This document shows positions 2,629 to 37,211 of a stretch of 44,947 nucleotides of DNA, piece by piece. This stretch comes from Synechococcus sp. AG-686-F08 (lineage in GTDB: Bacteria; Cyanobacteriota; Cyanobacteriia; PCC-6307; Cyanobiaceae): positions 1 to 44,947 of the forward strand of contig QCVQ01000012.1 in assembly GCA_003210315.1 (NCBI GenBank), written 5' to 3'. A program made the translations under genes and the position numbers. Position 1 is the stretch's first letter, and each line of letters starts with the position of its first letter. Under the pieces are notes generated by a model. The model was not told where the DNA came from. It worked only from the letters and a program-made list of their open reading frames with translations, and ran no database searches.

Positions 2629-3231
2629 ATGACCGTCTTTCACAAGGTCAATCGATCTGGCAAAGCAAAAGTCCTTTCACCGGACGAACAGGACCTCATC
2701 AAGTCCCACCTGCCAGAGAAGTACCGACTCATTGCCGAAATCCTTTATTGGTCTGCCGGACGAATCAGTGAAGTCCTGAGCATTCGCGTCAGGAATTTGG
2801 TTGCTTCCACAGGAATGGTTCTGCTGGAACGCAAAACCACCAAAACAAAGAGCACCAGAGCGGTTTATTTGCCTCCAAAACTCATGGATTCACTTGTCAG
2901 AAGGGCATCTGGACTGCGATTGCGACCATCTGATTTCCTTTTCTTCAACCAGTCACCAACCCAGGTCACCGATCAGTTCATTCGCCCCCTGTCCTCTCAG
3001 TCATTCGACAAGGAACTCCGCAGGGTTTGCGACTGGAATGGTTTGAGCGGTATCTCCTCTCACTCCTTCCGCCGAACCCAATTAACTGAGTTGTATCGGG
3101 ACGGTTGGTCTCTCAGAGAGATCCAGCACATCTCTGGTCACCGTTCTCTTCAGTCCCTGCAGGAATACCTGGACATCGACAAAGAGAAGGTGGTCGACAA
3201 ATTCCGTCAACGCATGGAGGTCGGATCATGA
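2629..3231 (+). CDS. Compact tyrosine recombinase (phage integrase family)
   Basis: The 200-residue product consists almost only of the catalytic domain of tyrosine recombinases, which cut and rejoin DNA at specific sites through a 3'-phosphotyrosine. All catalytic residues are visible from the ATG at 2629: Arg45 (SAGRISEVL), a Lys in the beta-hairpin near 72-74, His145 and Arg148 (HSFRR), His171 (SGHRSL) and nucleophile Tyr180 (EYLD). There is no long SAM-like core-binding domain; only about 35 residues precede the Arg I region. Compact recombinases of this kind occur in integrative elements and as XerC/D-like resolution enzymes. An in-frame GTG at 2608 is an alternative start. The stop overlaps the next start (ATGA), so it heads a three-gene operon. 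Confidence 0.85.
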   Translation: MTVFHKVNRSGKAKVLSPDEQDLIKSHLPEKYRLIAEILYWSAGRISEVLSIRVRNLVASTGMVLLERKTTKTKSTRAVYLPPKLMDSLVRRASGLRLRPSDFLFFNQSPTQVTDQFIRPLSSQSFDKELRRVCDWNGLSGISSHSFRRTQLTELYRDGWSLREIQHISGHRSLQSLQEYLDIDKEKVVDKFRQRMEVGS

Positions 3232-7056: not shown

Positions 7057-7087
7057 GCACTGCTTGCTGCCAAGGCAGTGCTTTTTT
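7057..7087 (+). terminator. Rho-independent terminator
   Basis: GCACTGC (7057-7063) and GCAGTGC (7075-7081) form a perfect stem, extended by TTG/CAA inside, and are followed by TTTTTT (7082-7087). It would end the rightward transcript of the small gene at 6819-7028. The T-tract touches the stop codon of the convergent integrase. Confidence 0.85.
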
Positions 7088-8372
7088 ATGCCTGCAGACC
7101 TTGTTCCAACAAGGCATCAGACCAGGCAACCATGAAGTCCCTTCGTTCCTCCATCATCTGACTCTTGTCATAGGAACCACGGATCTTGTCGCCAAAGGTG
7201 TGTGCCATCTGCCTCTGGATGATTTCGTGGTCGACCTTGAGCACCTCTTGCCCGGCAGTGAGAGCAAGGTGCCTGAACCCATGAGCAGTGGTCAGACCCT
7301 TGTATCCCATCTTTTTGATATGGGCATTCAGAGAGTCCTTGTGAACGTGCTGATACTCCCTGCCCCGGGGACTGAAGAAGACGTACTCGTTCCCTCCATT
7401 GAGTTGCCTCAACTCTTTAAGCACCTCCTTTAAGGGAGCAGTCAAAGGAACCTGATGCGCCTTGCCCGTCTTCATCCGGTCAGCAGGAATTGTCCATAGG
7501 TCCTTCTTGAGGTCGAACTCTTCCCACCGAGCAGGAGTGAGTGACCCGACCCGTAAGAAGGTCAGAACCAGGACCTTCACTGCCAAACGCACCACCAGAG
7601 CAGCATTGGCATCGTTCCTCTCCAGATCCTCAAAGAACTTGGGTAACTGGTCCCACTCCAGAGATGGATTGGACTTGGACGGAGGTGCTGCGCGAGTAGT
7701 CCGATCTGGAACTGCTGGGTTCTGGTTTCTCTCCATCCATCCCATAGACACTCCGTAGTCGAAGCAGGACTTCAGTACTGCCAGGCACTTATCGGACTGA
7801 GACCCCTTCCCTCTAAGAGTGATCTTCTGCTTTGCGGCAAGAACGACCTCACGACCATTACGACCGTCTTTTCCTGTTGCGTCCCACGACAACTGTTTAA
7901 CGGGGGTGTCAGCACCCAGTTCGGGCATCATCTGGTTAACCAACTTGTTGCGGTAGTCCTGCACCGTCCTTGGTTTCATCGGTTTGGGTTGCTTGGTCGA
8001 ACCCCATGCCAAGTAGGCATCCACCAATTGCTGGAACGTCGGACCCTGACTCTTTTTCTCGACTTGCTGCTTCTTCGACTTCTTCAGATCTCTGGGGTCG
8101 TTCCCCGTATCTCTGCTCCAGGTCCTGATGCGGTCCCACTCGTCGCGTGCCTTCTTCAGAGACCACTTGCCTACCCCTTTGCCATAGGGACCGATCTGAA
8201 CCTCTACCTGCTTTGCTCCTGCACCAGGTGGATGTCTCATCCGACCGACGAAGTACTTCCCACCTCCTCTTTGCCGGGGATAGACCACGATGTAGAGGGA
8301 ATCGCCTGCGGAGACGACTTTTCTCTTGTCTCCTGCCTCTAACGACCTGACTTCCGAGTCAGAGAGGGGCAT
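7086..8372 (-). CDS. int: P4-type tyrosine integrase next to tRNA-Ser
   Basis: The 428-residue product has the full plan of island and prophage integrases: an N-terminal arm-binding domain of the DUF4102 type (about 1-100; YIVVYPRQRGGGKYFVGR), a SAM-like core-binding domain (about 110-215) and a C-terminal catalytic domain (about 240-415). Catalytic residues are Arg274 (FLRVGSL), Lys301 or Lys304 (MKTGK), His364 and Arg367 (HGFRH), His391 and Tyr401 (GSYDK). Such enzymes insert elements at tRNA 3' ends, and the tRNA-Ser gene lies 186 bases away with its 3' end facing this gene. The ATG at 8372 has no clear ribosome binding site. The enzyme looks intact, so the island may still be mobile. Confidence 0.92.
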   Translation of the reverse strand: MPLSDSEVRSLEAGDKRKVVSAGDSLYIVVYPRQRGGGKYFVGRMRHPPGAGAKQVEVQIGPYGKGVGKWSLKKARDEWDRIRTWSRDTGNDPRDLKKSKKQQVEKKSQGPTFQQLVDAYLAWGSTKQPKPMKPRTVQDYRNKLVNQMMPELGADTPVKQLSWDATGKDGRNGREVVLAAKQKITLRGKGSQSDKCLAVLKSCFDYGVSMGWMERNQNPAVPDRTTRAAPPSKSNPSLEWDQLPKFFEDLERNDANAALVVRLAVKVLVLTFLRVGSLTPARWEEFDLKKDLWTIPADRMKTGKAHQVPLTAPLKEVLKELRQLNGGNEYVFFSPRGREYQHVHKDSLNAHIKKMGYKGLTTAHGFRHLALTAGQEVLKVDHEIIQRQMAHTFGDKIRGSYDKSQMMEERRDFMVAWSDALLEQGLQA

Positions 8373-21969: not shown

Positions 21970-22842
21970 TTAGTTTGCCGCGTCACGCCCCGTACTGCTC
22001 ACCCAAGCCTCGAGGCCTTCACCTAGGAAGGACAAACCGAGCACCAGCACAAACATCGCCAGACCTGGATAGAGAGCCGTCCACCAGATGCCAGTGGGCA
22101 CAGCTGCAAGCGCCAGATTGAGATCGCTTCCCCATTCCGGCACGGTTTCTGGCAAACCCAGGCCCAAAAAGCCCAAGCCTCCCAGCACCAACACTGCATC
22201 AGCAGCATTCAAGGTGAGCAACACGGGCACGGAGGTGATCACATTGCGGAACAGATAGCGCCGCAGGATCCAGATGGGACCGGCCCCGAGGGTTTTTGCA
22301 GCCTCCACGAACAACTCCGATTTCACCTGGGCTGTTTGGTTGCGCACCACTCGGAAGTACTGGGGGATGTACACCACGCACAGGGCTGCTGCAGCATTCG
22401 GAATGCCTCGACCCAGCAGAAACGCCAACACCACAGACAGCAACAACACCGGCAGGGTGTAGAGCGTGTCCATGAGCAGCACCAGCACCCGGTCGACACC
22501 GCCCCCGAGGTAGCCACTCAACATTCCAATCGGCACTCCCACCACCAAGGCAAGAACAACGGCCAGCAGGACCACTTGAAGGGCAACACCACTCCCCTGC
22601 AATGTGCGTACACACACATCGCGGCCGAGCCGATCGGTGCCACACCAATGCTGCGCAGACGGCGGTGCATAGATCGCACTGTCCAAACCGGCATTGGGAT
22701 CCGGTAGCCAGCCAATGCCGATCAGCACAGGCGTGAGAAGGGCAACGGCGATGTAGATCCCCACAATCACAAGACCCCATCGGGCCATGCGAGCCGAGAG
22801 GGTGGGGCGTGCGATGCCTAGGGGCGAAACCGCAAAACTCAA
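21970..22842 (-). CDS. dppC: DppC/OppC-type ABC transporter permease
   Basis: Inner-membrane permease of a peptide/nickel-type ABC importer. The 290-residue product has six predicted membrane helices and the family features: an N-terminal helix, the WCGTDRLGRDVCVRTLQGS segment near 68-86, the long BPD_transp domain (about 90-285), and the EAA loop (FVEAAKTLGAGPIWILRRYL) at about 175-195 that contacts the ATPase. The DppB-like partner, the ATPase and the binding protein are not in the window, so the substrate is unknown. The gene is divergent from the histidine kinase and followed by a small membrane protein gene. Confidence 0.87.
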   Translation of the reverse strand: MSFAVSPLGIARPTLSARMARWGLVIVGIYIAVALLTPVLIGIGWLPDPNAGLDSAIYAPPSAQHWCGTDRLGRDVCVRTLQGSGVALQVVLLAVVLALVVGVPIGMLSGYLGGGVDRVLVLLMDTLYTLPVLLLSVVLAFLLGRGIPNAAAALCVVYIPQYFRVVRNQTAQVKSELFVEAAKTLGAGPIWILRRYLFRNVITSVPVLLTLNAADAVLVLGGLGFLGLGLPETVPEWGSDLNLALAAVPTGIWWTALYPGLAMFVLVLGLSFLGEGLEAWVSSTGRDAAN

Positions 22843-22931
22843 GGCAACTGGGAGAGCGGAAGGGTTTCATTCTCCCTGGTCCAGCTGCCAAAATTGCAAG
22901 TAGCAATACACCGACGCTGGGGACCGATTTC

Positions 22932-24389
22932 GTGGCATCTGGGTCCAACTGGCGATCGCAACTTCTCGGCAGCCTGGAAGGCCAACTGCAGCTGGCCACC
23001 TACACAGCAGTGCTGATTGGATTCACCGGTGCCACCACCACAGGGCTTTGGCTCAGTAACCGCAATCAAATCCGCAATGGGGAGGCGGAATTACAGGCCA
23101 ATGCGGAGCATATGAGCAACAACCTCATGGCCCATAAGCACCTAGGCCAAGACCATTCCGCCAACGATTGGAGCCCAACGATTCAGGCAAAAGTGCGTCA
23201 GGAGCTACGCGATCATTCCAGCGTGCGAACCACCCTGTGGATCGAGCTGGCGGATGGACGCCTCGTACTGCCGACGTTTGGCCATATCGCCATCCCGATG
23301 AACATGATGCGAGCCACCATGCAGGCTCACAAAAAAGACCACAACACCCGACTGATCACGGTTCAAGGCCAGGACTACCTCACGCTGCTGAGCCAGTCGT
23401 ATCCAAACGGGGAACGGCTGTGGAGCAGCGCAAAAGCCACAGACACGGGTCGCATCCAAAACGAATTTCTGAGTTGGATGATCTTGATCGGGGTGGGATC
23501 GATGTTGCTCTCACTGTTCACGATCACCGTGATGGTGAGACGGATCGTGAGGCCTCTGCTGCAATTGAGTGAGCGCAGTGCAGCCCTTACCGCCGACACC
23601 CTGAATCAAGATCCGATTCCAGAGATGACGGCGGCACCGAAGGAAGTTCGCCAATTAGCGAGGACCTATTCGGAGTTGATGGAACGGCTGGCCCTGTCAT
23701 GGAATGATCAGCGGCGCTTTGTGAGTGCCGTGAGCCATGAGCTGCGAACACCCCTCACGATTGTTCAGGGGTATCTGCATCGCACGATTAAGCGCAGCAA
23801 GGGATTGAGCGATGACGAACGTCGGGGACTGAAAACTGCAGAGGAGGAAAGCATTCGCATGCGCTTGCTGCTTGATGATCTTCTCGATCTCTCTCGCGGA
23901 GACTGCGGCCAACTCCAGCTCAACCAAGAGGTGGTGGATCTTGGGCCATTGGTGGACAAAGTTGCTGATCTAAGCCGGAGCAATCTCACCGATCACAGGC
24001 TTGAAGTGGTGAACAACATTCCACACAATGAGTCCAGTGAGGCACTCGCTGATCCTGGCCGCTTGCAACAAGTGCTCTTGGATTTAATCGATAACGCCGC
24101 CAAGTACTCAGCCCAAGACTCTCTGATTACGTTGCTGCTGCATCGTCATCGAGATGGCATTGCCATCGATGTAAAAGACGAGGGCATTGGAATTCCAGAT
24201 GACGATCTAGCGCATATCTTTAAGCGCTTTCATCGGGCTAAAAACAGCACTCGAAGTAGCGGTACAGGGCTCGGACTCTCTGTGGTTGCCCTACTGATGT
24301 CTGCCATGGGCGGACAGGTACACGTTCAAAGCAAAGAAGGAGAAGGAAGCTGCTTCTCCTTGATTCTTCCCAAACCCACTGCAACTTGA
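22932..24389 (+). CDS. HAMP-type sensor histidine kinase
   Basis: A transmembrane two-component kinase. From GTG 22932 (GGGGA eight bases upstream) it has 485 residues: TM1 (about 22-41), an extracytoplasmic sensor domain of about 130 residues, TM2 (about 180-205), a HAMP linker (RRIVRPLLQLSERS), HisKA with phospho-accepting His269 (VSAVSHELRTPLTIVQGY) and a HATPase domain with N box (LIDNAAKYS), G1 (VKDEGIGIPDD), F box and G2 (GTGLGLSV). No response regulator gene is adjacent on this strand. No ATG lies near; a longer upstream frame overlaps dppC and is rejected. The sensed signal is unknown. Confidence 0.88.
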   Translation: MASGSNWRSQLLGSLEGQLQLATYTAVLIGFTGATTTGLWLSNRNQIRNGEAELQANAEHMSNNLMAHKHLGQDHSANDWSPTIQAKVRQELRDHSSVRTTLWIELADGRLVLPTFGHIAIPMNMMRATMQAHKKDHNTRLITVQGQDYLTLLSQSYPNGERLWSSAKATDTGRIQNEFLSWMILIGVGSMLLSLFTITVMVRRIVRPLLQLSERSAALTADTLNQDPIPEMTAAPKEVRQLARTYSELMERLALSWNDQRRFVSAVSHELRTPLTIVQGYLHRTIKRSKGLSDDERRGLKTAEEESIRMRLLLDDLLDLSRGDCGQLQLNQEVVDLGPLVDKVADLSRSNLTDHRLEVVNNIPHNESSEALADPGRLQQVLLDLIDNAAKYSAQDSLITLLLHRHRDGIAIDVKDEGIGIPDDDLAHIFKRFHRAKNSTRSSGTGLGLSVVALLMSAMGGQVHVQSKEGEGSCFSLILPKPTAT

Positions 24390-25112: not shown

Positions 25113-25700
25113 TCAGAACACTGCAACGGAGCGAAGGCGCCCAGAGCCATCATTAACCGCCTGCTCCAACGCGAGATGCAGCACCTTGGAATGAGGATCC
25201 TGGTGGGATTGAAAGCCCGAGCCATCCTTCGGTAAGCCATCCATCAGAACGCGATTTTGGGCCCTACCCCCTGGCCTGATCACACCATCGAGTCCGTAGG
25301 CGGGCCCGCAACGCATCAACACCTGGCCGCGCCAAATCGCTGAAGGCGCAGCTCCCACGCTGTAGACAATGACTCGAGAGGAAACTTCAGTGCTGCTGGG
25401 ATCCAGGCTGATGGCAAGCACCGGCTGACGGCCGGCCATGCCGCAGGACCATTGATGGGACGGAGCGGGATCAACCGTCCAGCTGGAGCCAATCGCTAAT
25501 TCACCGCGAATCAGCTCCAAAGTGCGGCGTTGCTGCGCTGATTCACGCAAACGACTCGCCATGCTGCTGCCAAGGCGTAGATCAGCACCGATCAGATGCA
25601 GAAACACAACAAACAGCATGCTGCCAAGACTGATCGACAGCAGCAGCTCGATCAACGTGAAGCCTTTCTCGGCTCTTGTTTCATTCATTCGCTTGATCAT
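25113..25700 (-). CDS. Type IV pilin-like protein, PilW-like (195 aa)
   Basis: A prepilin with class III-type leader: from ATG 25700 the sequence is MIKRMNETRAEKG, cleaved before FTLIELLLSISLGSMLFVVF. Gly at -1, Phe at +1 and Glu at +5 are all present, so prepilin peptidase PilD should process and N-methylate it. The rest is a soluble beta-rich domain containing two Cys (SCGMAG and LMRCGP). Position last in a four-gene pilin operon and its size fit a PilW-like minor pilin, which sits at the priming tip complex of the pilus. A longer frame to 25787 overlaps the previous gene and is rejected. Confidence 0.82.
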   Translation of the reverse strand: MIKRMNETRAEKGFTLIELLLSISLGSMLFVVFLHLIGADLRLGSSMASRLRESAQQRRTLELIRGELAIGSSWTVDPAPSHQWSCGMAGRQPVLAISLDPSSTEVSSRVIVYSVGAAPSAIWRGQVLMRCGPAYGLDGVIRPGGRAQNRVLMDGLPKDGSGFQSHQDPHSKVLHLALEQAVNDGSGRLRSVAVF

Positions 25701-25704
25701 CGGC

Positions 25705-26223
25705 TTAGCTCGAGGAGACATCGGGCAGGCAACGGCTACTGCGCAGACGACCACCCTCTGAAGGAAATGGATCCTGATAGGAGCCAATCCGGCTCACGCC
25801 CAAGGGCAAGCTCACCACCACACATCGAGCTTTGGATAAACGACCGTGGCTCAGCACCGCAATCCCGCCATCCAAAAGCAAACCGTTGGCAGTGAAGCGC
25901 AACACCGGCGGCAAGTTGGTGTTCAACACAATCGGGCCTTGATCGAATTCCTCCTGCAAGGCCATCCCAATCCCAGGGCAGGCGGGAAGAGGCGCCGGCA
26001 GGATCCCTTCATCAGGTGCCGTAAATCCCTCTTCGCTCAGGGAAACTCCGCAAGCGTTCTGCTCACGCCTGGCAATGCTGCGAGCCCGATCCAAGCCGAC
26101 CTGCAAACGGCGCGCACTGGCATCGAGCTGCAATTGATCCCGGTCGCTACCTCCCGTCACAATCGGAATCGACGCCAAGATTCCTACCAAGCTCACCACG
26201 ATCAGCTGCTCGATCAAGCTCAT
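25705..26223 (-). CDS. Pilin-like protein (GspH/FimT-like) without a leader peptide
   Basis: The 172-residue product starts MSLIEQLIVVSLVGILASIP, which is the hydrophobic alpha-1 of a type IV pilin (S-L-I-E at +2 to +5). Its initiator Met takes the place of +1 Phe. Upstream, only codons GGT GCG CTC separate the ATG from an in-frame TGA, so no leader can be encoded in this frame. The soluble part has a GspH/FimT-like look (ASARRLQVGLDRARSIARRE, then beta strands) and Cys in NACGVS, PACPGI, ARCVVV and SRCLPD. It sits between two other pilin-like genes, with ATGA overlap upstream. GspH/FimT-type proteins prime pili and can bind DNA. Confidence 0.75.
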   Translation of the reverse strand: MSLIEQLIVVSLVGILASIPIVTGGSDRDQLQLDASARRLQVGLDRARSIARREQNACGVSLSEEGFTAPDEGILPAPLPACPGIGMALQEEFDQGPIVLNTNLPPVLRFTANGLLLDGGIAVLSHGRLSKARCVVVSLPLGVSRIGSYQDPFPSEGGRLRSSRCLPDVSSS

Positions 26224-26651
26224 GAGCGCACCTCATCCGGCGGGCAGAGGCCATAGGCCGCAGGGGTAAACAGCAAACGCCTCTTTAAAGGAGGCATTGA
26301 TGGCTGAGGTTTAGTACTGAGCTCGAGCCAATGGCCAAGACCCTGCGGATCGTCACTCCAATGCGTGCTCACTTCAGATCCAAGCGGCAAACGCTCAGCA
26401 GATGCTGATTGCAAAGCTTCCGAGTTAAATCTGCAATCTGCCGAGCTGGAATCGATTACGACAGATGCTGCCGCTTCCGACTGAAGCCAACGATCAGTCG
26501 AAATCCGAGCCATCTCCAGCTGAAGAGCGAGCTCATCCAACTGCGAGGCACGATGAATTTCAGTGGCGGCCTGATTCCACACGCCAACAGCAGCGCTGCT
26601 GCTTCCGGCCAACACAACTGACGACACAACAACTTCGAGCAAGCTCATCAC
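26220..26651 (-). CDS. Pilin-like protein (PilV-like) without a leader peptide
   Basis: Product of 142-143 residues beginning (M)MSLLEVVVSSVVLAGSSSA, again a pilin alpha-1 with Glu at the +5 position and Met in place of +1 Phe. The possible starts are GTG 26651 or ATG 26648; the codon before GTG is TGA in the same frame, so at most one residue precedes the mature-like N-terminus. GGAGG lies a few bases upstream. The rest is a helix (HRASQLDELALQLEMARIST) followed by strands. It overlaps both neighbours by a few bases and belongs to the leftward pilin operon. PilV-like is from size and order only. Confidence 0.72.
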   Translation of the reverse strand: MMSLLEVVVSSVVLAGSSSAAVGVWNQAATEIHRASQLDELALQLEMARISTDRWLQSEAAASVVIDSSSADCRFNSEALQSASAERLPLGSEVSTHWSDDPQGLGHWLELSTKPQPSMPPLKRRLLFTPAAYGLCPPDEVRS

Positions 26652-27151
26652 TCAGCCTCCAGCTGAGGGACGCGAGCCTGCGGCTGCACATCACTGATCC
26701 CATTTACTGCAAAAGTCGGGGGGGCAAGCGCAAGCCGGAAACGCCCAGTGCGACCATCCGCCAAGCGCAATCTCAATTGCCCGCTCTCGATACTTGGCTG
26801 CCAATCGACCAACGACCAGCCCATCTCACCCACCACACCACCGCCCAACTGGGAGGGGTCGGAACCTGAACAGCCATGAGCTACACCAGGCCAATCCAGC
26901 GATGGCCACTGCAGCAAACAGGCTTGAAGCCCACGACTTGCAACAACAAATTCCTGGGCCGCAGAACGCAACTGATCAGCGCCTTGCTCGCGTTGATAAG
27001 AGGCATGGATCCGCAAGCGTTTCTGGAGACTGAGCGTATGAATCGAAGCACTCCCCAACAGCAGCACCGCTGAGGCAGAAAGCGCCAATGGCAACACGAA
27101 GCCAGCCTGGGATCTTGGCCGACAAACCAACGAACAACTCAAAGGGTTCAA
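26648..27151 (-). CDS. PilX-like pilin-related membrane protein (167 aa)
   Basis: First gene of the leftward pilin operon. The N-terminus is basic (SLVCRPRSQAG) followed by FVLPLALSASAVLLLGSASI, so a G^F cleavage site is present but +5 is Leu rather than Glu, as in PilX-like or GspK-like proteins that lack Glu5. Such subunits sit at the tip of the pilus. The soluble part contains TLSLQKRLRIHASYQREQGA, a Cys pair (LQACLL and AHGCSG) and beta strands. The first codon is TTG at 27151; no ATG lies before the hydrophobic helix, so the exact start is unsure. It diverges from the response regulator gene 63 bases away. Confidence 0.65.
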   Translation of the reverse strand: MNPLSCSLVCRPRSQAGFVLPLALSASAVLLLGSASIHTLSLQKRLRIHASYQREQGADQLRSAAQEFVVASRGLQACLLQWPSLDWPGVAHGCSGSDPSQLGGGVVGEMGWSLVDWQPSIESGQLRLRLADGRTGRFRLALAPPTFAVNGISDVQPQARVPQLEAE

Positions 27152-27214: not shown

Positions 27215-27922
27215 ATGCCACAGGAAAGAGCCGCCAGAGTGCTGGTTGTTGATGATGACCCTGAACTGCTGCAGTTTCTGCAGGACGAGTTCAGCGAGCA
27301 GGGGCTGGACTGCAGCAGCGCCAATTGCGGTGGGGATGCCCTAGTGAGTCTGAGGCAGGAGAGCTTTGATCTGGTGGTGCTCGACTGGACCTTGCCTGAT
27401 TTCGATGGCATCGAGATCTGCCGGCGCCTGCGCAGCAGTGGCGACACCACGCCTGTGCTGATGCTTACCGCACACGATGATGTGGACGACCGGGTAAAGG
27501 CGCTTGATCTGGGAGTTGACGATTACCTCACCAAACCCTTCGAGTTGAAAGAGTTACACGCCCGCGTGCGCGCCCGATTGCGGCGGGGCCAATTCGCGAG
27601 TTCTGAACGCGCCAAAGACAACCTCAACCTTGGAGATCTACAGATTGATTTGATCGAACATCGGGTCACACGAGCGGATCGTGAATTGTCTCTCTCGCAA
27701 CGTGAATTCGAGCTGCTCGCCTACCTGGTGAAGCACAACAACGAAGTACAGACCAGGCAACAGATTCTGGAAGGCGTGTGGGGCAAACCATTTGTGGGCG
27801 ACCCCAACTCATTGGATGTGTACATGGGTTACCTGCGCAAAAAAGTTGAGGTCAAAGGTGAACCGCATCTGCTGCACACGGTGCGCGGCGTGGGCTTTAT
27901 GGCCCGGCTGCCGAAAGCCTGA
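27215..27922 (+). CDS. OmpR-family response regulator
   Basis: The 235-residue protein has a receiver domain (about 8-122) with acidic pocket Asp13-Asp15, phospho-acceptor Asp57 (VVLDWTLPDFDG), Thr in LTAHDD and Lys107 (LTKPFE), and a winged-helix DNA-binding domain (about 140-232; SLSQREFELLAYLVKHNNEV, then VYMGYLRKKVE and TVRGVGFM). It is a transcription factor activated by phosphorylation. It is convergent with a histidine kinase gene, overlapping it by 26 bases, and lies between two pilin gene sets with divergent starts to the left one. The natural inference is that it controls pilin expression. GAGGGCGG is a fair ribosome binding site. Confidence 0.92.
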   Translation: MPQERAARVLVVDDDPELLQFLQDEFSEQGLDCSSANCGGDALVSLRQESFDLVVLDWTLPDFDGIEICRRLRSSGDTTPVLMLTAHDDVDDRVKALDLGVDDYLTKPFELKELHARVRARLRRGQFASSERAKDNLNLGDLQIDLIEHRVTRADRELSLSQREFELLAYLVKHNNEVQTRQQILEGVWGKPFVGDPNSLDVYMGYLRKKVEVKGEPHLLHTVRGVGFMARLPKA

Positions 27923-29183
27923 AATGCAGCTGCATATCAGCTCCTCCACCTGAAGCTTCAGAAATCACGAGCTTGCCCCCCATCAAGAGCATCAGCTCGC
28001 CCACCAGAGGCAATCCAATCCCCATGCCGCGAGTGCCGGTGGAACTGCTGCCCCGCTTGAAACGTTGCAAAACCAGCGAGCGCTCAGCTGCGGTGATACC
28101 AGCACCCTGATCAAACACATGCAATACCAGCCAGTCACCAGCAAGCTCAACCTGAAGCAGCACAACGCCGGAGCTGTAAAGCAGGGCATTGCGAATCAGC
28201 TCTTGCAAACACTGCTGCAGTTTCTGAGGATCAGCCATCAAAACTGGGAATGGCTCAACCCCTGGCAGAGGCAGCTGAACACGACCTTGCGCGAGGGTTA
28301 ACGACGATTCGTAGGCGTTGAGCAGTTGCTCACCTGGATCCAGGGGAACGAGCTGAACAACAAGTTTGCCGGCATCAATCCGCGCCAGATCACGCATCAC
28401 ATTGAGAAGATCAGCCATCCGCCGAGCTTCTGAATGGATCATCTGGGCTGAACGCTCTGCAGATGCCGGCAACGCCTGTCGCTGCAGCCGCTGGGAGTAG
28501 CCGGAGATCACCGTGATCGGCGTGCGCAGTTCATGGGTGACTCCATCAACAAAGGCTCGCTCACGCTTCCAGGCGGCAGCGAGACGTTGCTGAAGATTGT
28601 TGAACGCCAGCGCAATGGAACGCAGTTCCTGAGGTTGCGTTGCCGGATCCAACAGGTTCTCACCAAGATTGTCGGCCTCAAGCTTCTGCAGCTGCTGATC
28701 GAAATCATTGAGAGGAACCACCAGCCCACGCCGCAATACCAGCCGCAGCAGTAGCGACGTAAAAAGTATCGACACACCGGCCGCTGCAATCAGCAACAGA
28801 TGTGTCATCCGCTGTCGCTCGAGCGATTGGGTGACGTTCTGACGCAGCTCAAACCAACGCTGATCTCCATCAGACAACGGCAGCCGGCTAATACTCACGA
28901 ACCATCGTTCACCGGAGACGTCGGTTTGCAAACGTGGCCTCTCTGCAGGCCCAGACGGCAACAGAGTCACCTCCAGGCCAAAACTACTCAGAGGCACTGA
29001 ATCCAACCGACCAGCCTGAACTTGCGGCGCCAATGACTGCACCAAGCGTTGATGCCGCTCACGTCGTTGCAGATCAGAGAACGCACTGCTGAGAACCAAC
29101 AGCAGGGCATATCCGGCAACAACCGTGAGCAGGGCAGTGGACTGAAGCCATACCCGCAGCGAAGGCAGCGACTGTTGTTTCAA
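27897..29183 (-). CDS. Sensor histidine kinase beside pilin genes
   Basis: 428 residues: TM1 (about 17-36), a periplasmic domain of about 90 residues, TM2 (about 128-150), a HAMP region (RRGLVVPLNDFDQQLQKLEA), HisKA with His217 (VDGVTHELRTPITVISGYSQ) and a HATPase domain with Asn332 (N box, ELIRNALLYS), Asp358 (G1, VFDQGAGI) and G2 (GTRGMGIGLPLVGE). Its short periplasmic domain could sense an envelope signal. The ATG at 29183 starts 131 bases from the PilA-like gene in the divergent direction; its stop overlaps the response regulator stop. The pair is probably cognate. Confidence 0.9.
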   Translation of the reverse strand: MKQQSLPSLRVWLQSTALLTVVAGYALLLVLSSAFSDLQRRERHQRLVQSLAPQVQAGRLDSVPLSSFGLEVTLLPSGPAERPRLQTDVSGERWFVSISRLPLSDGDQRWFELRQNVTQSLERQRMTHLLLIAAAGVSILFTSLLLRLVLRRGLVVPLNDFDQQLQKLEADNLGENLLDPATQPQELRSIALAFNNLQQRLAAAWKRERAFVDGVTHELRTPITVISGYSQRLQRQALPASAERSAQMIHSEARRMADLLNVMRDLARIDAGKLVVQLVPLDPGEQLLNAYESSLTLAQGRVQLPLPGVEPFPVLMADPQKLQQCLQELIRNALLYSSGVVLLQVELAGDWLVLHVFDQGAGITAAERSLVLQRFKRGSSSTGTRGMGIGLPLVGELMLLMGGKLVISEASGGGADMQLHFRLSAAGP

Positions 29184-29314: not shown

Positions 29315-29788
29315 ATGACCACTCTCAACAGCCGACTGCAGCTAACAATGCTGAACCGCAAAAAAGCACGCAACTTGCTGCAGCAAGGTTTCACGTTAGT
29401 GGAACTCATGATCGTAGTTGTCATTGTTGGCATTCTTTCTGGAGTTGCCCTACCAAGCTTTTTAGGTCAAGCCAGCAAAGCGAAAGGAGTTGAATGCACA
29501 ACTGCAGTGGGTTCAATCCTTACAAGGTTTACATCCGACGCAGCCGAAAGCAAAACCGATGCACTAGCCAACGCAGTAGCCCTAGCAACTACGCTGACAA
29601 GCAATTCAACAAACTGCACAATTAGCACACCTACAGCAACCAACCCCAACATTTTAAGTGTTGCAGCTGTAGGGGCCGGTGACCTTGCTGGTGAATATTT
29701 CGCTGAAGCTTGTGTAAATATTGCTAATGGCAAGAAAGCCTTAGACACTTCAGATGAAGCGATTGCCACTATACCATCCTGCACTTGA
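29315..29788 (+). CDS. pilA: Type IV pilin, PilA-like (157 aa)
   Basis: Probable major structural pilin. Processing site is LLQQG^FTLVELMIVVVIVG: Gly25 at -1, Phe26 at +1, Glu30 at +5; the mature protein has about 132 residues. A conserved hydrophobic alpha-1 is followed by a small globular domain with four Cys (VECTTA, TNCTIS, EACVNI, PSCT), likely two disulfides. Ser/Thr/Ala-rich segments suggest possible glycosylation. ATG 29315 gives a 25-residue leader; ATG 29348 gives 14, so either start is possible. A strong terminator follows at 29814, so it is transcribed separately from the downstream genes and perhaps much more strongly. Confidence 0.87.
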   Translation: MTTLNSRLQLTMLNRKKARNLLQQGFTLVELMIVVVIVGILSGVALPSFLGQASKAKGVECTTAVGSILTRFTSDAAESKTDALANAVALATTLTSNSTNCTISTPTATNPNILSVAAVGAGDLAGEYFAEACVNIANGKKALDTSDEAIATIPSCT

Positions 29789-29845: not shown

Positions 29846-29960
29846 GCACAACCGGGAAAATAGTCTCAGTACAAAGCCAAGCAAGCCATCGAAACTCCAA
29901 TGCATATGAATGAAACATTCTCGACCAAAACAAAGAAGCAATCCACCACATGAGGAAAAA

Positions 29961-30455
29961 ATGAAAAACCTAAAAAATGGTTATTCACTCACTGAGATTT
30001 TGGTCTCTGTAGGCCTACTTGGCATCTTGACAAGCATATCAATGCCAACTTATTTCGAAGAAGTCAACAAGAGCAGGCAAAAGGAAACTCAATCAGTTGT
30101 ATCCACTATCCCCACAATCATCAGCGCTTACATTGACGCGACTGGTGAATTACCTACGAAATGGGATGAGATTTCCAGTATCGCGACAGTGATGACTAAC
30201 GATGGCCCTGCAACTGGAGAACTTACCTCACCAATCATTCTTCCAAATGGGAACTTTGAACTCTCTGTCGCAGGTCCAACTGATTCGATTTACACACTAA
30301 CCGCAACACCCCGGGTCGTTAGCGACGCTGCCAATCCAGAAGAAATTGATGAGGACAGATTTGCAATCCAATCCTGCTTCAATGTGAGCAATGGTGCAAG
30401 TGATTTAAAAAGAGGAATGGGTATCGAAAACAAAGAAGTTCTTAATTGCGGCTAA
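29961..30455 (+). CDS. Type IV minor pilin (164 aa)
   Basis: From ATG 29961, preceded by a good ribosome binding site (TGAGGAAAA), the product has a seven-residue leader MKNLKNG cleaved before YSLTEILVSVGLLGILTSIS, with Tyr at +1 and Glu at +5. The remainder is a globular domain with two Cys (IQSCFN and VLNCG, the last a C-terminal disulfide loop as in many pilins). It is the first gene after the PilA terminator and is directly followed by the 600-aa PilX-like gene, so it begins the rightward minor-pilin set. A longer frame from 29910 is rejected. Confidence 0.85.
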   Translation: MKNLKNGYSLTEILVSVGLLGILTSISMPTYFEEVNKSRQKETQSVVSTIPTIISAYIDATGELPTKWDEISSIATVMTNDGPATGELTSPIILPNGNFELSVAGPTDSIYTLTATPRVVSDAANPEEIDEDRFAIQSCFNVSNGASDLKRGMGIENKEVLNCG

Positions 30456-30458
30456 GTC

Positions 30459-32261
30459 ATGCAGAAACAATCTTTGATCAACAATCCAAAAAAATCAATT
30501 CGGTCATCAAACCTCAAAACAGAAGAGGGGATGGCCCTATTGGTGGCCATGCTCATGGGTGCTGTTCTGCTTGCAGGAAGCTCCGGACTCATGATACGCC
30601 AAATCATGGCACGCAAATTAGGCTCGGCGGAAAGTTATCAACAAATGGCTGAATCTGCAGCTCTTAGTGGCCTGAATCGCATCATCAGTGATCTAAATCG
30701 AAATGATCGAGACAACTACACAGGATTTCTTCTCTCTCTCAACAACAGCGAAGAAAAGAGAGGTTGGACAAATCCAAATACAGAGGGTTTTGAATTAGTA
30801 GAGCTCTGCACCCCCGTCACAAAACACACCAGCGCATATCCAGAAGGAACAACAACAGAATCACCTGAAATAAGAATCAATAAAGGGACAATTCGATCCG
30901 ACGGATTATCGGGTGACATTCAAATCACTTATCGACTCCGCAGTTACGACACAACAGCCACAGCCGGAAATGGTGAAGGCACTTTTTATGTAGAAGGTGT
31001 TGTGAAGCGTGGAAACACCATTCTTGCGCAAGCATTGTTACGCAGATCCCTCTATGTGAATTCACAAGTACCTGGCTTTGGGGACTGGAGTGTGATGAGT
31101 GGGCGAAACCTGCGGTTAAACAATACAGAAATCATTGGTCCAGGACATATCTTTTATCTAACTAGCAGAACCAATAATTACTCAGCCCTTCAATACGGCA
31201 TTAGCTGCAGTGACGATGGATTACTCAATGATGTAAGCGCGAATAATTCCAACCTTGCAGGCAAAGAACTGAACAATCAAGTATGGCCAATCAACATCAA
31301 TGCAGAAAATCGAGGGGTTAGCGGAATGCCACCAGCCACTCTATTTGAGAAAAATCCAATTAATGACACAACCGATCAAAGCGGTGAAACCAGCATCAGG
31401 ATGTGGAGTTTTGATGACAGTCCAGCAGCCCCTGATGATCGAGATAAAGATGGTGATCTCGATGTCGATCCAGCTGGAAATTTAGTGCTTTACCCAGCCC
31501 TACCATGTGGAGAAGCAGTCTGTGTACGCGATGCTGATAAAACCGATTTAGGTGATTACCAATTCAACGAATCGGGAGACATCGAGAATTCAGGAGATTT
31601 TCGGACCCTCGCTGATGAAGGAATCAACATTGATCCTGAGCAATCCACAATCACACTTTCCAAGGGAATCCTCTGCAACCAATCCAATCAGTTTGACTGC
31701 CATGTGTATATTGATCATATTAAATTATCAACGAAGTCTCTACTGATCGAAACAGACGATTCAAGAGCTGTTGTCTTACACCTAGATCAGCCCATTGCTT
31801 ACCCTGACGACACAAGAATCACCAGGGCCATTGAGCTTACGAACACAGCCAAACTCTGCGGAGTGAGTGCCAATAGCTCAACCTGCAATGAAAATCCTGA
31901 GCAACTTGTGATCATGGCCAGCAGTGGGGCAGCACCCGCAGAAGCCTGTAATAGCAAAGTGAGATCTTTAAACTTCTCAACCAACACTCTTCCCTATGCA
32001 CTTCTCTATATGCCTACGGGTACGATTCGAGCTAATAATGCATCATTAAGCGGCCTTGCATGGGCAGGTAGCATCTGCGTGGTTGATTCCACTAACAATC
32101 CGTCTTCCTTCAAATTAACGACTAAGCTTGGCAATTCTCCAATCGTTGAAAGAGCAAATAACCTCTGGGAATGGAAAAGCCGCTTTAACTATCCAGGTTA
32201 CGGCCGAATGGTAACGCGCGCTATTCGTGGAACGAGCCTCGACACCTTTGAGCGTTGGTAG
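30459..32261 (+). CDS. Large PilX-like protein with an EF-hand-like calcium loop (600 aa)
   Basis: Residues 1-23 form a basic leader ending EEG, before MALLVAMLMGAVLLAGSSGL; +5 is Val rather than Glu, as in PilX-type pilins. The rest (about 50-600) is a large extracellular beta-rich domain. Around residues 325-341 lies an Asp-rich loop DRDKDGDLDVDPAG that resembles a dockerin or EF-hand calcium site. Ten or more Cys in pairs (SCSDDG, PCGEAVC, LCNQSNQFDC, LCGVSANSSTC, EACNSK, SICVVD) suggest several disulfides. PilX proteins sit at the pilus tip with PilY1-like adhesins. At 600 residues it is several times longer than classical PilX. It starts four bases after the preceding gene. Confidence 0.72.
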   Translation: MQKQSLINNPKKSIRSSNLKTEEGMALLVAMLMGAVLLAGSSGLMIRQIMARKLGSAESYQQMAESAALSGLNRIISDLNRNDRDNYTGFLLSLNNSEEKRGWTNPNTEGFELVELCTPVTKHTSAYPEGTTTESPEIRINKGTIRSDGLSGDIQITYRLRSYDTTATAGNGEGTFYVEGVVKRGNTILAQALLRRSLYVNSQVPGFGDWSVMSGRNLRLNNTEIIGPGHIFYLTSRTNNYSALQYGISCSDDGLLNDVSANNSNLAGKELNNQVWPININAENRGVSGMPPATLFEKNPINDTTDQSGETSIRMWSFDDSPAAPDDRDKDGDLDVDPAGNLVLYPALPCGEAVCVRDADKTDLGDYQFNESGDIENSGDFRTLADEGINIDPEQSTITLSKGILCNQSNQFDCHVYIDHIKLSTKSLLIETDDSRAVVLHLDQPIAYPDDTRITRAIELTNTAKLCGVSANSSTCNENPEQLVIMASSGAAPAEACNSKVRSLNFSTNTLPYALLYMPTGTIRANNASLSGLAWAGSICVVDSTNNPSSFKLTTKLGNSPIVERANNLWEWKSRFNYPGYGRMVTRAIRGTSLDTFERW

Positions 32262-32440: not shown

Positions 32441-32947
32441 ATGAACGATCGAGCATCCCCACTTCGCATCATGCCTAGAAAGCGCAACCAGGCTGAAGGC
32501 TTCACGATGCTCGAAAGCTTGATTGCTGGATTTGTTGTTGCTGCCGTCATGACTGGTGTGGGACGCATGGGCGTTTCATCCATGGCAACCAGCCGAAATC
32601 AGTCGTCACGCAACACCATCGAAGCATCAATCAATAACCATATCCAGCTGGTTCAAATGCAGGATTCCTACCTCACGGCTGAGTCGATCCAGTCTGAGTC
32701 AGGACTGAATACCAGTCTGGAAGATGCCTGCCAAAATCCAAGTGCATTTCTGATGAATCATCTTCAGAATATTGAAATAGTAAACAACACCCCTAACCCT
32801 GAAGTAGCAATGGACTGGAATAGTGACGATCCAAATCTACTAGTTCTTATCTACAACTTTGAAGCCCCTGAATCATCCATCGGTGCAGAACAACGCATCG
32901 TTGACATCAATCCAAACTTTTCCTCTCAGTGCTATAACCTGCAATGA
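32441..32947 (+). CDS. Type IV minor pilin, PilV-like (168 aa)
   Basis: The leader ends RKRNQAEG, cleaved before FTMLESLIAGFVVAAVMTGV, with Phe at +1 and Glu at +5. A 168-residue protein from ATG 32441; ATG 32471 would shorten the leader to ten residues. The N-terminal helix continues to about residue 65 (NTIEASINNHIQLVQMQDSY), then a small Asn-rich domain with Cys in DACQNP and SQCYNL. It is followed by another pilin with ATGA overlap, so the two form an operon. PilV-like is by size and order only. Confidence 0.82.
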   Translation: MNDRASPLRIMPRKRNQAEGFTMLESLIAGFVVAAVMTGVGRMGVSSMATSRNQSSRNTIEASINNHIQLVQMQDSYLTAESIQSESGLNTSLEDACQNPSAFLMNHLQNIEIVNNTPNPEVAMDWNSDDPNLLVLIYNFEAPESSIGAEQRIVDINPNFSSQCYNLQ

Positions 32948-33627
32948 AAAAGACAAATAAAGGATTTACCTTAACCGAGATGGTTGTGACCATGGCCCTT
33001 CTCGCAGCGTCAACAGCCATCACGGTTCCAATGATCACCGGAAATCGCGGGCAACGAGACGTGGATCGTTATGCCCATGCACTGGAATCAGGGCTGTTGA
33101 ATTTAAAAGCAAAGCTAGGGCAAACAAAAACCAACTGCATGATTGCCTTCCCTTCAGCATTTTCATTTCAAAATCCAGAGAATCTTGTGGAGTTCAGCCA
33201 AGGAAAAAATGGGCAAACGAGTATGCAATGCTGTAATTCAGAAATCAGCAAGCTAACCAACGATACTGATTGCATGAACGGATACCCCGGGTATCGACTC
33301 AGCGAACTAACAGGAAAAGCACAGGATAATTTGCGCCTTGTTCAACAGGAATCAACACCAGCATCCAAAGTTATTCGAGTTGCTGTGAGCAAGAAAGACT
33401 TTGGATTCACCCCACCAGGCACCACCGCTAATTTAGATACGATCACTTTTCTAATTTGCCATCAGCGAGCCGCGACAACAGCTGCTCCAACATCCTGTAT
33501 TCCAAATCAAAATAAACTAAGCATCGGCTGTGTACAAATGAATGGGGCAGGAGAAATCACAAAAGGCACTTGGGCACTCGCCAATGAAACATCGCCAATG
33601 AGCAGCGGCTCGTGCAAAAAAGTCTGA
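32944..33627 (+). CDS. Type IV minor pilin, FimU/FimT-like (227 aa)
   Basis: The start overlaps the stop of the preceding pilin gene. A short leader MKKTNKG is cleaved before FTLTEMVVTMALLAASTAIT; Phe at +1 and Glu at +5 are present. The long globular part has eight or more Cys (TNCMIA, MQCCNS, TDCMNG, LICHQR, TSCIPN, IGCVQM, GSCKKV), so it should be heavily disulfide-bonded after export. Size and rank in the operon suggest a GspH/FimU-type tip-complex pilin, but sequence beyond the N-terminus is not recognisable. Confidence 0.82.
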   Translation: MKKTNKGFTLTEMVVTMALLAASTAITVPMITGNRGQRDVDRYAHALESGLLNLKAKLGQTKTNCMIAFPSAFSFQNPENLVEFSQGKNGQTSMQCCNSEISKLTNDTDCMNGYPGYRLSELTGKAQDNLRLVQQESTPASKVIRVAVSKKDFGFTPPGTTANLDTITFLICHQRAATTAAPTSCIPNQNKLSIGCVQMNGAGEITKGTWALANETSPMSSGSCKKV

Positions 33628-33733: not shown

Positions 33734-35344
33734 ATGTCTAAAATGATGCGAAAAATCTCAGTATCTTATCGGACATACGGCTTCACTCTTCCGGAGCTTC
33801 TTGTTGGGATAACAACGGGGACACTCATCATCGGTGCAGCATCGATGGGTCTACGCAGCACCCAAACGTTAATGACCGAATCCCATGGCAAAGCAACACT
33901 CAGACAAAATACTACGACGGGATTACGTTTAATGCGCTCTGAGGTTGAGCGCAGCATGAATCTGCTTGTGGTGCGAACAGAAGGCGTGCAAGAGGGCGAA
34001 GAAAATACTGACCTTACTCCTTATCAAGATGTTGTGAATTACTGCCAAGGATTACCAACAGCAAAAGGATTCAATCCAGTCTTTGGGATCAACATGGTGG
34101 AACTCGATGACCCTGTCATTTACGGGATTGGTCTTAGCAGTGATGGCCGTGGATACGCATTGCTACGTTGCGGGGCTCCACTTAAGATGGATGGAACATA
34201 CGTTACAGAAGAAGATCAAGAAACAGGTGATAATAATGAACAATACCAATCAGGGCTTTTTATAACATCCATCTTAGATGATATTGGAACCATTCCATGC
34301 AAAGTGAATGATCTCGCTGAAGACGAAAAGTGCCCTGACAGTAAAAATTTAAACTCAATTTTATCTCAAGTCAGATTTAATTTTTCTGGTGATAAAACAC
34401 CAGCACGAACCTTCCAGGAACCTGCTCTCAGGGTCCAAACAGATGTCAATACCAAACTGGTGAAATTTATCGACCCCTACGAGCTTGACGACACAAAAAA
34501 TGATGATCCCTATCAGATCTCAGCGAGCTTCCTTGAAGACACCAATGAGGCAAAGTCTCAGACCAAGCAAGATTTATATTTTGCGGCATTCGCACGCGCC
34601 GATAAACGGGTGAGATTTGGCTTTAATGCAACTGATAGCAATGAAGGGAACGGATACAGTGGCGGAGCATTTTTTCAGAACATCACTAGTAATAATGTCC
34701 GATTCATCTTGGATGGATCTGGATCCATGAGTGCATGCGTAGCCTGGAGCGGAGAGTATGGAAACACCCGACGCAGGTTTTACGATCCAGAGCAAGGGTA
34801 TTATCGAACCTACAAAATCTGTAGTTTTACACGCATGGAAGCTTTGCAGCATGAGATGATTGATATCATCGGGAACTTACCTGATTACACAAAAATTGGA
34901 TTGGCTGCTTTCAGCACAAATGGAAAGCGAAACAACAAAACCTGGGATAAAAGTCGCAACAACCTCGTAGAACTTGGCCCAGCGAACTCAGAGGTGCGGC
35001 AATCTGCAATCCAATTTGTCAGCAGCCTCAGCAACAGTGATCCAACATACTGGGGAGGAACCATGCCCTGGACATCACTGGATGATGCATTCAGTGACAC
35101 AAGTACAGATACCATCTACTTTTTGTCCGACGGGAAACCCAATAAAGACAGAAGAAATAGGAGCTGGAGTAGCAGTGACTATGACAACATTGCTGATCAC
35201 TATGCAGGGCGCAACTCTGATCGAGTCATCGCAGGAGATAAGTCGATCAAAATCAACTCCACAAGCGTTGGACTCCATTCAGAATGGATGCAAATCCTCT
35301 CCAGCAAAACCTCAGGCGAATATATAAAAGTAGACGACGTTTAA
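33734..35344 (+). CDS. Modular type IV pilin with C-terminal von Willebrand A domain (536 aa)
   Basis: The N-terminus is a PilW-type prepilin: leader of 16 residues ending TYG, then FTLPELLVGITTGTLIIGAA, with Phe at +1 and Glu at +5. Residues 45-320 form a PilW-like region. From about 322 to 536 lies a von Willebrand A domain beginning NNVRFILDGSGSMS; the metal-ion (MIDAS) residues are Asp327-x-Ser329-x-Ser331, Thr443 (GGTMPW) and Asp466 (FLSDGKP). vWA domains bind protein ligands through the metal. Modular pilins with vWA domains are known from Gram-positive type IV pili as adhesins, and PilY1 carries a vWA at the tip. Here one polypeptide combines PilW and vWA. It is probably an adhesive tip pilin. 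A gap of 106 bases separates it from the preceding pilin. Confidence 0.88.
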   Translation: MSKMMRKISVSYRTYGFTLPELLVGITTGTLIIGAASMGLRSTQTLMTESHGKATLRQNTTTGLRLMRSEVERSMNLLVVRTEGVQEGEENTDLTPYQDVVNYCQGLPTAKGFNPVFGINMVELDDPVIYGIGLSSDGRGYALLRCGAPLKMDGTYVTEEDQETGDNNEQYQSGLFITSILDDIGTIPCKVNDLAEDEKCPDSKNLNSILSQVRFNFSGDKTPARTFQEPALRVQTDVNTKLVKFIDPYELDDTKNDDPYQISASFLEDTNEAKSQTKQDLYFAAFARADKRVRFGFNATDSNEGNGYSGGAFFQNITSNNVRFILDGSGSMSACVAWSGEYGNTRRRFYDPEQGYYRTYKICSFTRMEALQHEMIDIIGNLPDYTKIGLAAFSTNGKRNNKTWDKSRNNLVELGPANSEVRQSAIQFVSSLSNSDPTYWGGTMPWTSLDDAFSDTSTDTIYFLSDGKPNKDRRNRSWSSSDYDNIADHYAGRNSDRVIAGDKSIKINSTSVGLHSEWMQILSSKTSGEYIKVDDV

Positions 35345-35396: not shown

Positions 35397-37211
35397 TCAT
35401 GGAGTCTGATTTAATTTCAACACTGCCATGAAGGCCTCTTGCGGCACATCAACCTTGCCCATCGCCTTCATCCGCTTCTTGCCCTTTGCCTGTTTCTTCA
35501 GTAGTTTCTTCTTGCGGGAGATATCACCGCCGTAGCACTTCGCCAACACATCCTTACGGATCGCGCTAATACTTGTACTGGCAATAATCCGGCTGCCGAT
35601 CGAAGCCTGCAAAGGAATTTTAAATTGCTGGCGAGGAATCAATTCCTTGAGCTTTTCCACTAAGCCCTTACCCACGTTGTAGGCCTTATCGCGGTGCACA
35701 ATTGTGGTAAGCGGATCAGCTCTTTCAGCATTGATCAACACATCCAGGCGCACAAGCTCGTTCTTGCGATAGCCAATTAGGTGATACTCCATCGAGGCAT
35801 AGCCCTGGGTGCGGGTTTTCATTTGATCGAAGAAATCAGTCACCACTTCCGCCAGGGGCAATTCGTAGATCAAGGTGACCCTTTCTTTGGTGATGTATTT
35901 CATATCGAGATACTCACCTCTACGCTCCTGGCATAGGCCCATCAATGCTCCATTGAACTCATTGGGCGCATAAATCTCCATACGCACGTAGGGTTCCTCA
36001 ATAGATTCACGCTGCTGTGGATCTGGAAGTGTCGCTGGATTATCCACCAAAATTTGCTCACCATTGGTGAGATTTACGGTGTAAATCACCGATGGAGCCG
36101 TAACAATCAGGTCGAGGTTGTATTCACGTTCCAAACGCTCCTGCACAATCTCCATGTGCAACAAACCAAGGAATCCACAACGAAATCCAAAGCCCATCGC
36201 ACTACTGGTTTCAGGTTCAAATTTCAGCGCTGCATCAGAGAGCTGCAATTTGTGCAGGGCTTCGCGTAAATCCGGGTATTGATCGGCCTCCGTCGGGAAT
36301 AATCCGCAAAACACCATCGGCTTGGCTTCCGCATAACCAGGCAGCGGTGCATCAGCCGGCTCGTTCACCAAGGTGATCGTGTCTCCAACACGAGCATCAG
36401 CCACGGCCTTGATCGATGCCGCGAGGTAACCCACCTCTCCGGCATGGAGCTCATCTACCTTCTTCTCATCCGGGGCCATGATCCCCACTTCATCGAGCTC
36501 ATAGGTTTTGTTGCTGGCCATCAACAACACCTTGTCCTTACGGCTGATCCTTCCGCTCATCACACGGAAGTAAACAATCACTCCGCGGTAAGGGTCGTAA
36601 TAAGAATCAAAAATCAGCGCTTTGGTGGGCTCCTTCACCGTGTCGGCAGGTGGCGGAACGCGATCCACCACCGATTGGAGGATTTCTGGAACTCCCATCC
36701 CCGTTTTGGCAGAACAAGGGATCGCATTGGAGCAATCCAAGCCGATGATCGCTTCGATCTCCTCTTTGATGCGATCAGGGTCGGCACCCGGCAGATCAAT
36801 CTTGTTGAGCACAGGAATGATCTCAAGATCATTCTCCAGCGCCATATAAACGTTCGCCAAGGTCTGAGCCTCCACTCCCTGGCTTGCATCCACCACAAGC
36901 AAGGCGCCTTCGCAGGCCTGAAGGCTGCGGCTCACCTCATAGGAGAAGTCCACATGGCCTGGTGTGTCGATGAGGTTGAGCACATACTCCTCACCATCCG
37001 CGGCCTTGTAGTTCATGCGGGCGGCTTGAAGCTTGATCGTGATCCCCCGTTCCCGCTCCAGCTCCATGTTGTCGAGGAACTGCTCTTGCATGTCCCGATT
37101 GGCCACCGTGCCGGTGTCTTGCAGCAAACGATCAGCCAATGTCGACTTGCCATGGTCGATATGGGCAATGATGCAGAAGTTGCGAATCCTTTTGACGGGA
37201 GCGTCGGTCAT
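35397..37211 (-). CDS. lepA: Elongation factor 4 (LepA)
   Basis: LepA is a ribosome-associated GTPase that can back-translocate or help resume stalled ribosomes. The 604-residue product has the GTPase domain ([42 protein letters not shown]), EF-G-like domains II, III and V, and the LepA-specific C-terminal domain with the Lys-rich end ([20 protein letters not shown]). Length is normal. ATG 37211 gives the expected [20 protein letters not shown] start. It is convergent with the vWA pilin gene, 52 bases apart, and divergent from the SMR transporter. Confidence 0.96.

Follow-up and report, generated by a model that had tools for sequence, protein, structure and literature searches.

The gene at positions 33734..35344 (forward strand) of the DNA analysed here (44,947 nucleotides of Synechococcus sp. 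AG-686-F08, referred to below as the window) encodes a type IV pilin fused to a C-terminal von Willebrand A (vWA) domain with a complete MIDAS, the metal-binding residue set of such domains. This pilin-vWA architecture and its conservation among relatives are confirmed. The protein is reasonably likely to be a type IV minor pilin of two modules, the second of which would act as a metal-dependent adhesin, probably displayed at the pilus tip. It is encoded at the end of a minor-pilin cassette beside lepA, and related pilins at this locus carry RTX repeats, or no additional module, in place of the vWA domain.

A pilin with a C-terminal vWA domain and a complete MIDAS

The gene is an intact ORF, from ATG to stop, and its product has 536 aa. 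Alignments and profile comparison divide this protein into a leader and pilin module (residues ~1-292), a short linker and a vWA module (residues ~313-536; 34670..35341, forward strand). The prepilin leader (33734..33781, forward strand) ends at Gly16, which is followed by Phe17 (+1) and Glu21 (+5). The window protein has the features of a class III leader: Gly at -1, a hydrophobic residue at +1, Glu at +5 and a hydrophobic helix thereafter. Across the 30 rows of alignment A1 (the window protein and 29 homologues), the leader Gly is present in 29/30 rows, the Phe in 26/30 and the Glu in 30/30, in agreement with the sequence-only reading, which had picked out the same three residues at the same positions. 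The Pfam domain N_methyl scores 15.3 bits in the window protein, under its curated cut-off of 21.2, and this cut-off is surpassed by homologue L076 (26.5). In nine of the 30 A1 rows (L012-L020), the Glu stands at +6 rather than +5 after the presumed leader Gly (e.g. GFAGMSE), a spacing that is unusual for prepilins.

The middle of the protein had been described as PilW-like. What remains of this description is a weak likeness to PRK10557, matched by 2/30 A1 members (best E-value: 0.0072); a Pfam search with the window protein gave no match to PilW or GspJ. The PilW/GspJ assignment is tentative and comes from gene order.

The MIDAS residues of the vWA module (D327-x-S329-x-S331, T443 and D466) are invariant in 29/29 A1 rows that have the domain; the single A1 row that does not have it is from genome G032. 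Cys335 and Cys363 are found in 29 rows and flank an insertion right after the MIDAS strand, where they may form a disulphide. By itself, the window protein scores 14.4 bits against VWA_2 (Pfam cut-off: 27). At E <= 0.1, VWA_2 is matched by 22/30 A1 members (best E-value: 4.1e-4) and VWA_3 by 8/30 (best E-value: 1.2e-5). Because the single-protein Pfam scores are under the curated cut-offs, identification of the vWA domain needs evidence at the level of the family, which is strong. A 29-row vWA alignment (A2) was compared by hhalign with 12 cyanobacterial vWA domains obtained from a VWA_2 search. The two profiles match with a probability of 96.5%; the match covers 155 columns, beginning at the MIDAS strand and reaching the domain end. 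Control comparisons gave 0.1-1.0% for five column-shuffled decoys, 0.1% for the pilin module and 0.6% for an RTX-pilin alignment.

A divergent family of pilin-vWA proteins (alignment A5; 11 proteins read, from 10 genomes) matches the vWA profile at 98.4% and A2 at 99.5%. L076 belongs to this family and is over both Pfam cut-offs (VWA_3 33.5, cut-off 27; N_methyl as given above). Among the A5 rows, five of which were scanned, L083 passes VWA_3, L077 passes N_methyl and is just under the cut-off for VWA_2, L081 is below the Pfam cut-offs and L085 has no vWA match. The D and first S of the MIDAS are conserved in 11/11 A5 rows, and the second S, the T and the last D in at least 90%. L085 (from G300) is a divergent vWA pilin in which the MIDAS has decayed, with replacement of the second Ser and the last Asp; it represents a natural MIDAS-less form.

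Structural comparison contributes little to the assignment. AlphaFold2 models made from two-row alignments have a mean pLDDT of 30.7 for the whole protein and 37.9 for the vWA module, and both are too poor to use. A Foldseek search of the PDB with the poor vWA-module model gave 64 matches at E <= 10, none of them below 0.73, and no title among the best 50 of the 64 names a vWA domain. Phmmer with the window protein against PDB chains gave 0 sequences at E <= 1. The vWA profile weakly matches one PDB chain, 9no5 (E-value: 0.073), in pieces located on the MIDAS strand, helix 1 and the SDGKPN strand, and the pilin profile matches three chains to which a relation is not evident. Sub-threshold Pfam scores for the lone protein, the lack of a phmmer relative among these chains and the unusable models are what would be expected if the vWA call were mistaken and the DxSxS, T and D set had arisen by chance in an unrelated domain. 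This explanation is scarcely credible, however, and was rejected in view of the 29/29 invariance of the MIDAS, the homologues that pass the Pfam cut-offs and the 96.5% profile probability with clean decoys. The earlier proposal of a pilin with a C-terminal vWA domain and a complete MIDAS is borne out.

The minor-pilin cassette beside lepA

The pilin-vWA gene is the last gene of a cassette on the forward strand. The cassette begins with a PilA, a major-pilin-like protein of 157 aa (29315..29788; N_methyl E-value: 1.7e-7). This is followed by genes for a GspG/PilE-like pilin (29910..30455; TIGR01710, 4.1e-7, under the cut-off), a large GspK-like minor pilin of 600 aa (30459..32261; NCBIfam GspK, 2.3e-4, under the cut-off) and a PilV/GspI-like minor pilin (32441..32947; weak HpsB and PilV matches), all of which, like PilA, are conserved in position. 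A GspH-like minor pilin (32944..33627; N_methyl, 8.6e-6; TIGR01708, 0.0076, and 6e-5 in a homologue) directly precedes the pilin-vWA protein. The subtype names, taken from sub-threshold matches and gene order, are tentative, in particular those of the GspK-, PilV/GspI- and GspH-like proteins. Three homologues of the GspK-like gene were scanned, of which two have weak PilV matches and one has none. The gene at 35397..37211 (reverse strand), taken here from its sequence to be lepA, lies 52 bases from the pilin-vWA gene. It is a convergent, conserved flank outside the pilin system and anchors the locus.

The six-gene order (PilA, GspG-like, GspK-like, PilV-like, GspH-like and pilin-vWA) is found in at least one cassette of 12/16 fetched vWA loci. 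In the other four (G016, G026, G260 and G075), one cassette gene is missing in the scan or the locus runs off the stretch. lepA is present in 15/16 fetched vWA-type stretches and directly adjoins the vWA gene in 9/16. The divergent A5 type is found in other surroundings: none of the 10 fetched A5-type loci yielded lepA or a GspK-, PilV- or GspH-like gene, and 9/10 have a PilA-type or GspG-type match.

A separate set of pilin-like genes is located at 25113-27151 (reverse strand). It consists of four small overlapping ORFs, namely a GspH-like ORF at 25705, an ORF with N_methyl at 25113 and two without a family match at 26220 and 26648, and may be a minor-pilin set without extra modules. The region between the two pilin sets (27215-29183) encodes a response regulator with a winged-helix output domain (forward strand) and a histidine kinase (reverse strand), and a further histidine kinase is encoded at 22809-24389. 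It is possible that the response regulator and histidine kinases control the pilin genes.

Proposed function of the pilin-vWA protein

The architecture of the window protein is not new, because pilin-vWA fusions have been published. In the pertinent passages of PMC8179133, PilB of Streptococcus sanguinis is described as a pilin onto which a vWA domain with a MIDAS is grafted; the domain binds Mg or Mn, and this metal binding is important for twitching and adhesion. These passages give 264 modular pilin architectures, with vWA among the 15 commonest. The novelty hinted at earlier is thus overstated as regards the architecture. Within the open-licence full texts, no description of a pilin-vWA protein from cyanobacteria or picocyanobacteria was found; the terms "Willebrand" and "vWA" are absent from the main texts of PMC7994388, PMC12288463 and PMC11424642.

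As PilB is portrayed in those passages, the window protein resembles it in being a large minor pilin with an N-terminal pilin module and a C-terminal vWA domain with a complete MIDAS. It differs from PilB in its cyanobacterial diderm host, in its pilin part of ~290 residues with a leader, in its GspG/K/PilV/GspH-like cassette and in having related pilins that bear RTX repeats or no module. The likeness is one of shared architecture (the PilB chain was possibly not among the PDB chains of the phmmer search, which gave 0 sequences at E <= 1). Modular pilins in general, CofB included, likewise carry an extra functional domain on a pilin (PMC8179133).

Three other systems offer comparisons. vWA domains occur in some PilY1 proteins, which act at the tip with minor pilins (passages of PMC8179133 and PMC7541494), and in Myxococcus xanthus PilY1 and four minor pilins make up a priming and tip complex (PMC7541494). 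Unlike PilY1/PilC, the window protein has its vWA domain as a covalent part of the pilin, and the PilY1 beta-propeller (PF05567) is not among its Pfam matches at E <= 1. PF05567 was found in 0 of 60 relatives, a search in which the control genomes gave 0 too. CglB, an adventurous gliding lipoprotein (NF033757), weakly matches the vWA region (E-value: 0.012; 6/30 members), but the score is 14.7 of 200 bits, far under the cut-off, and CglB is not a pilin family. A parallel in gene content is the pilA1 cluster of strain WH7803, in which, according to passages of PMC7994388, pilA1 clusters with five other pilin-like genes and is associated with observed pili; as in the window, there are six clustered pilin-like genes and neighbours of unknown function.

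The proposed model for the pilin-vWA protein is as follows. After export and cleavage behind Gly16, the pilin module would be incorporated into the pilus together with the GspK-, PilV- and GspH-like minor pilins, probably as part of a cap that primes assembly and is retained at the tip. The vWA module would jut from the tip and bind a divalent metal via the MIDAS. Through metal-dependent ligand contact, the PilA1-type pilus could then hold a surface, particle, polymer or other cell. All of these features, from cleavage and assembly to placement at the tip, metal binding and adhesion, are predicted. The predicted tip placement draws on the minor-pilin cassette and on analogy with the PilY1/minor-pilin complex as presented for M. 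xanthus, and the gene context and the PilB precedent make both tip location and adhesion plausible. The adhesin reading is favoured because of the invariant MIDAS, the conservation of the vWA domain, the whole-domain profile match, the conserved cassette, the PilB and PilY1 precedents and the WH7803 pilA1 cluster. Weighing against it are the poor structure models, the sub-threshold matches behind the cassette names, the occurrence of the A5 type outside the cassette context and away from lepA and the decayed MIDAS of one A5 member. In addition, assembly of this subunit into pili is made less certain by the WH7803 data, since in the passages of PMC7994388 PilA1 and PilE are the only products of the pilA1 cluster reported from exoproteomes, and PilA2 is at low levels in cellular proteomes.

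Two alternatives concern the role of the protein within its apparatus. In 25/29 comparisons with the window protein, conservation of the vWA domain equals or exceeds that of the pilin body, taken as residues 76-292 (for example, 83 vs 75% in G006 and 53 vs 43% in G021); the exceptions are L022, L023 and L026, in which the vWA domain is 1-2 points under the pilin body, and G032, which has no vWA domain. This pattern suits a fixed self partner over a variable outside target. The vWA module might accordingly be a tip adaptor that docks the surface layer of its own cell or a protein secreted separately, with the MIDAS serving protein-protein assembly, just as CofB is an apparent adapter for secreted CofJ (passages of PMC8179133). 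However, no companion gene was seen beyond the pilin, the convergent lepA being next in the window and in 9/16 vWA loci, and this alternative is considered unlikely. The weak GspG, GspK, GspH and HpsB profile matches in the cassette raise the other alternative, in which the protein belongs not to a true pilus but to a pseudopilus that serves polysaccharide secretion or a type II-secretion-like function. Against this, the cassette contains a PilA gene and the pilA1 cluster of WH7803 goes with visible pili ~10 um long (PMC7994388), such that a pseudopilus role is highly improbable.

If the adhesin reading is correct, marine Synechococcus would have a conserved metal-dependent module, with RTX and module-less alternatives in related strains, through which attachment to particles, contact between cells and phage sensitivity could be approached genetically in dominant marine phototrophs. 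It would also carry the modular-pilin principle beyond a streptococcus, into a cyanobacterial lineage whose natural differences in module can be compared. Pili of marine Synechococcus reportedly reduce sinking and impede grazing (passages of PMC7994388), and chitin adhesion of type IV pilins has been raised by analogy with Vibrio in a marine Synechococcus exoproteome paper (PMC4949707).

Distribution and divergence of the cassette

Proteins matching the pilin-vWA protein are found in a minority of related genomes. An initial search of 60 genomes gave matches in 23 (the window's own counted), with two copies in 7/60 (G002, G011, G013, G016, G020, G024 and G026). When the A1 profile was run against 400 genomes of the family (again with the window's own counted), 67 had any match and, among the matches listed, the window's type of pilin-vWA protein is present at full length in 42/400; G032 additionally has the pilin part alone. 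The gene is intact in relatives, and is thus neither interrupted nor absent in all close relatives; Synechococcus sp. AG-673-A03 is one of the relatives. The A5 profile identified the full-length divergent type in 24/400 genomes and partial forms in 3 more (G199, G118 and G415). By assembly size (1.0-2.0 Mb, with several assemblies incomplete), the hosts of the divergent type are Prochlorococcus-like. Across 291 genomes of the class, 23 matched, of which 12 are within the family and the 11 outside it match in the first part of the pilin module only; independent pilin-vWA fusions outside the family would be missed by the A1 profile. Among viral contigs, 249 pattern matches included 0 relatives.

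Several weak A1 matches are homologous pilins with a different C-terminal end. Nine such RTX-fused prepilins were read (L066-L074), all of which are over the Pfam RTX cut-off and four of which are also over that of N_methyl. By hhalign, the pilin modules of the RTX type and the vWA type are related (98.7%). Counting only matches to the A6 profile with E < 1e-45, an RTX pilin is present in at least 27/400 genomes; an A6 tally of 297/400 genomes was dropped since many of its matches were RTX repeats in long ORFs or pilin N-termini alone. Among these RTX pilin genes, that of G183 is split, and the match in G252 contains a stop. Seven of the 27 genomes (G002, G016, G024, G231, G266, G307 and G345) are candidates, at weaker E-values, for carrying both RTX and vWA types. 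Three of these were checked by Pfam: G016 is over the RTX cut-off, G231 is under it and G024 has no RTX match, and so the presence of both types in one genome is firm only for G016. No description of a modular pilin with RTX repeats was found in open-licence full texts; such forms are absent from the passages of PMC8179133 and are possibly in its Dataset S1.

The RTX loci vary in their relation to lepA. The RTX gene is directly beside lepA in G008 and G001, and in G143, G183 and G217 it lies 2.1-4.4 kb away and pilin-like genes intervene; lepA is absent from the fetched stretch in G383, G395, G283 and G210. The G008 cassette contains PilA, a 483-aa ORF (no leader by pattern), two small pilins and, as its last gene, the RTX pilin. 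It resembles the window cassette in layout only: searches of the nine RTX loci with the window's GspK- and GspH-like proteins gave no matches. In G016, lepA and a vWA cassette are separated by an RTX cassette. The pilin module of G032 ends in a short repeat tail, and the 1.26 kb downstream, which holds lepA, contains no vWA match. In four further genomes (G281, G287, G327 and G140; L086-L089), the cassette is gone and small vWA fragments are left at lepA, that of G140 (L089) being seen in the 400-genome profile search alone.

The cassette and its flanks differ in their divergence. In G012, G013 and G020, LepA is 99% identical to that of the window and the other flanking gene products are 93-96% identical (except for SMR, 74% in G012, and Mqo, a 44-residue piece in G020). 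In these same genomes, identity is 30-46% for the vWA pilin and the GspG-, GspK-, PilV- and GspH-like proteins, and 45-63% for PilA. Cassette divergence is not uniform, as G006, which is equally close by its flanks, has a cassette identity of 46-79%. On a LepA tree of 26 rows, in which genomes with both types were scored as vWA and several branches are poorly resolved, the vWA label requires 7 changes, 4 of them forced by well-supported branches, and the RTX label requires 4, of which 3 are forced. The vWA label is not notably clustered on this tree (128/500 shuffles were as low). All four labels taken jointly are clustered (7 changes, as low in 4/200 shuffles), as are the vWA remnants (1/500 shuffles). 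In the vWA-pilin tree, which has three long-branch rows, only the starred clade with the window protein was used.

The LepA tree and the identity data support repeated exchange of the cassette, short of proof. A broader proposal is that this is a tip-cassette exchange locus of marine picocyanobacteria, in which a whole minor-pilin cassette, its terminal pilin bearing an exchangeable metal-dependent module (vWA with MIDAS, RTX calcium-binding repeats) or no module, would undergo swapping, duplication, arraying and loss beside lepA, so that strains with near-identical flanks would differ in their pilus tips. Confidence in this proposal was lowered by the RTX check of the double-type genomes and by the locus scans for cassette genes and lepA, and it is put forward tentatively, as somewhat more doubtful than probable. 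If true, pilus tip specificity would distinguish strains of the ocean's main phototrophs as a trait of niche or of phage resistance. The difference in vWA and RTX modules between related cassettes is the more novel part of these results, for which no precedent was found in open-licence full texts.

The same divergence could arise if the cassette diversified chiefly to evade pilus-targeting phages or grazers, with the module shielding or varying the tip and adhesion being secondary. Cassette proteins at 30-46% (PilA at 45-63%) in three genomes with 99% LepA identity, together with duplication, module difference and decay at one locus, are in keeping with such escape. However, the MIDAS is invariant in the window's type, which pure escape would have no need of, and escape as the chief driver is judged rather improbable.

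With regard to mobility of the wider region, ORFs at 2608-3231 and 7086-8372 resemble tyrosine recombinases by eye, which suggests that the left end of the window holds a mobile island.
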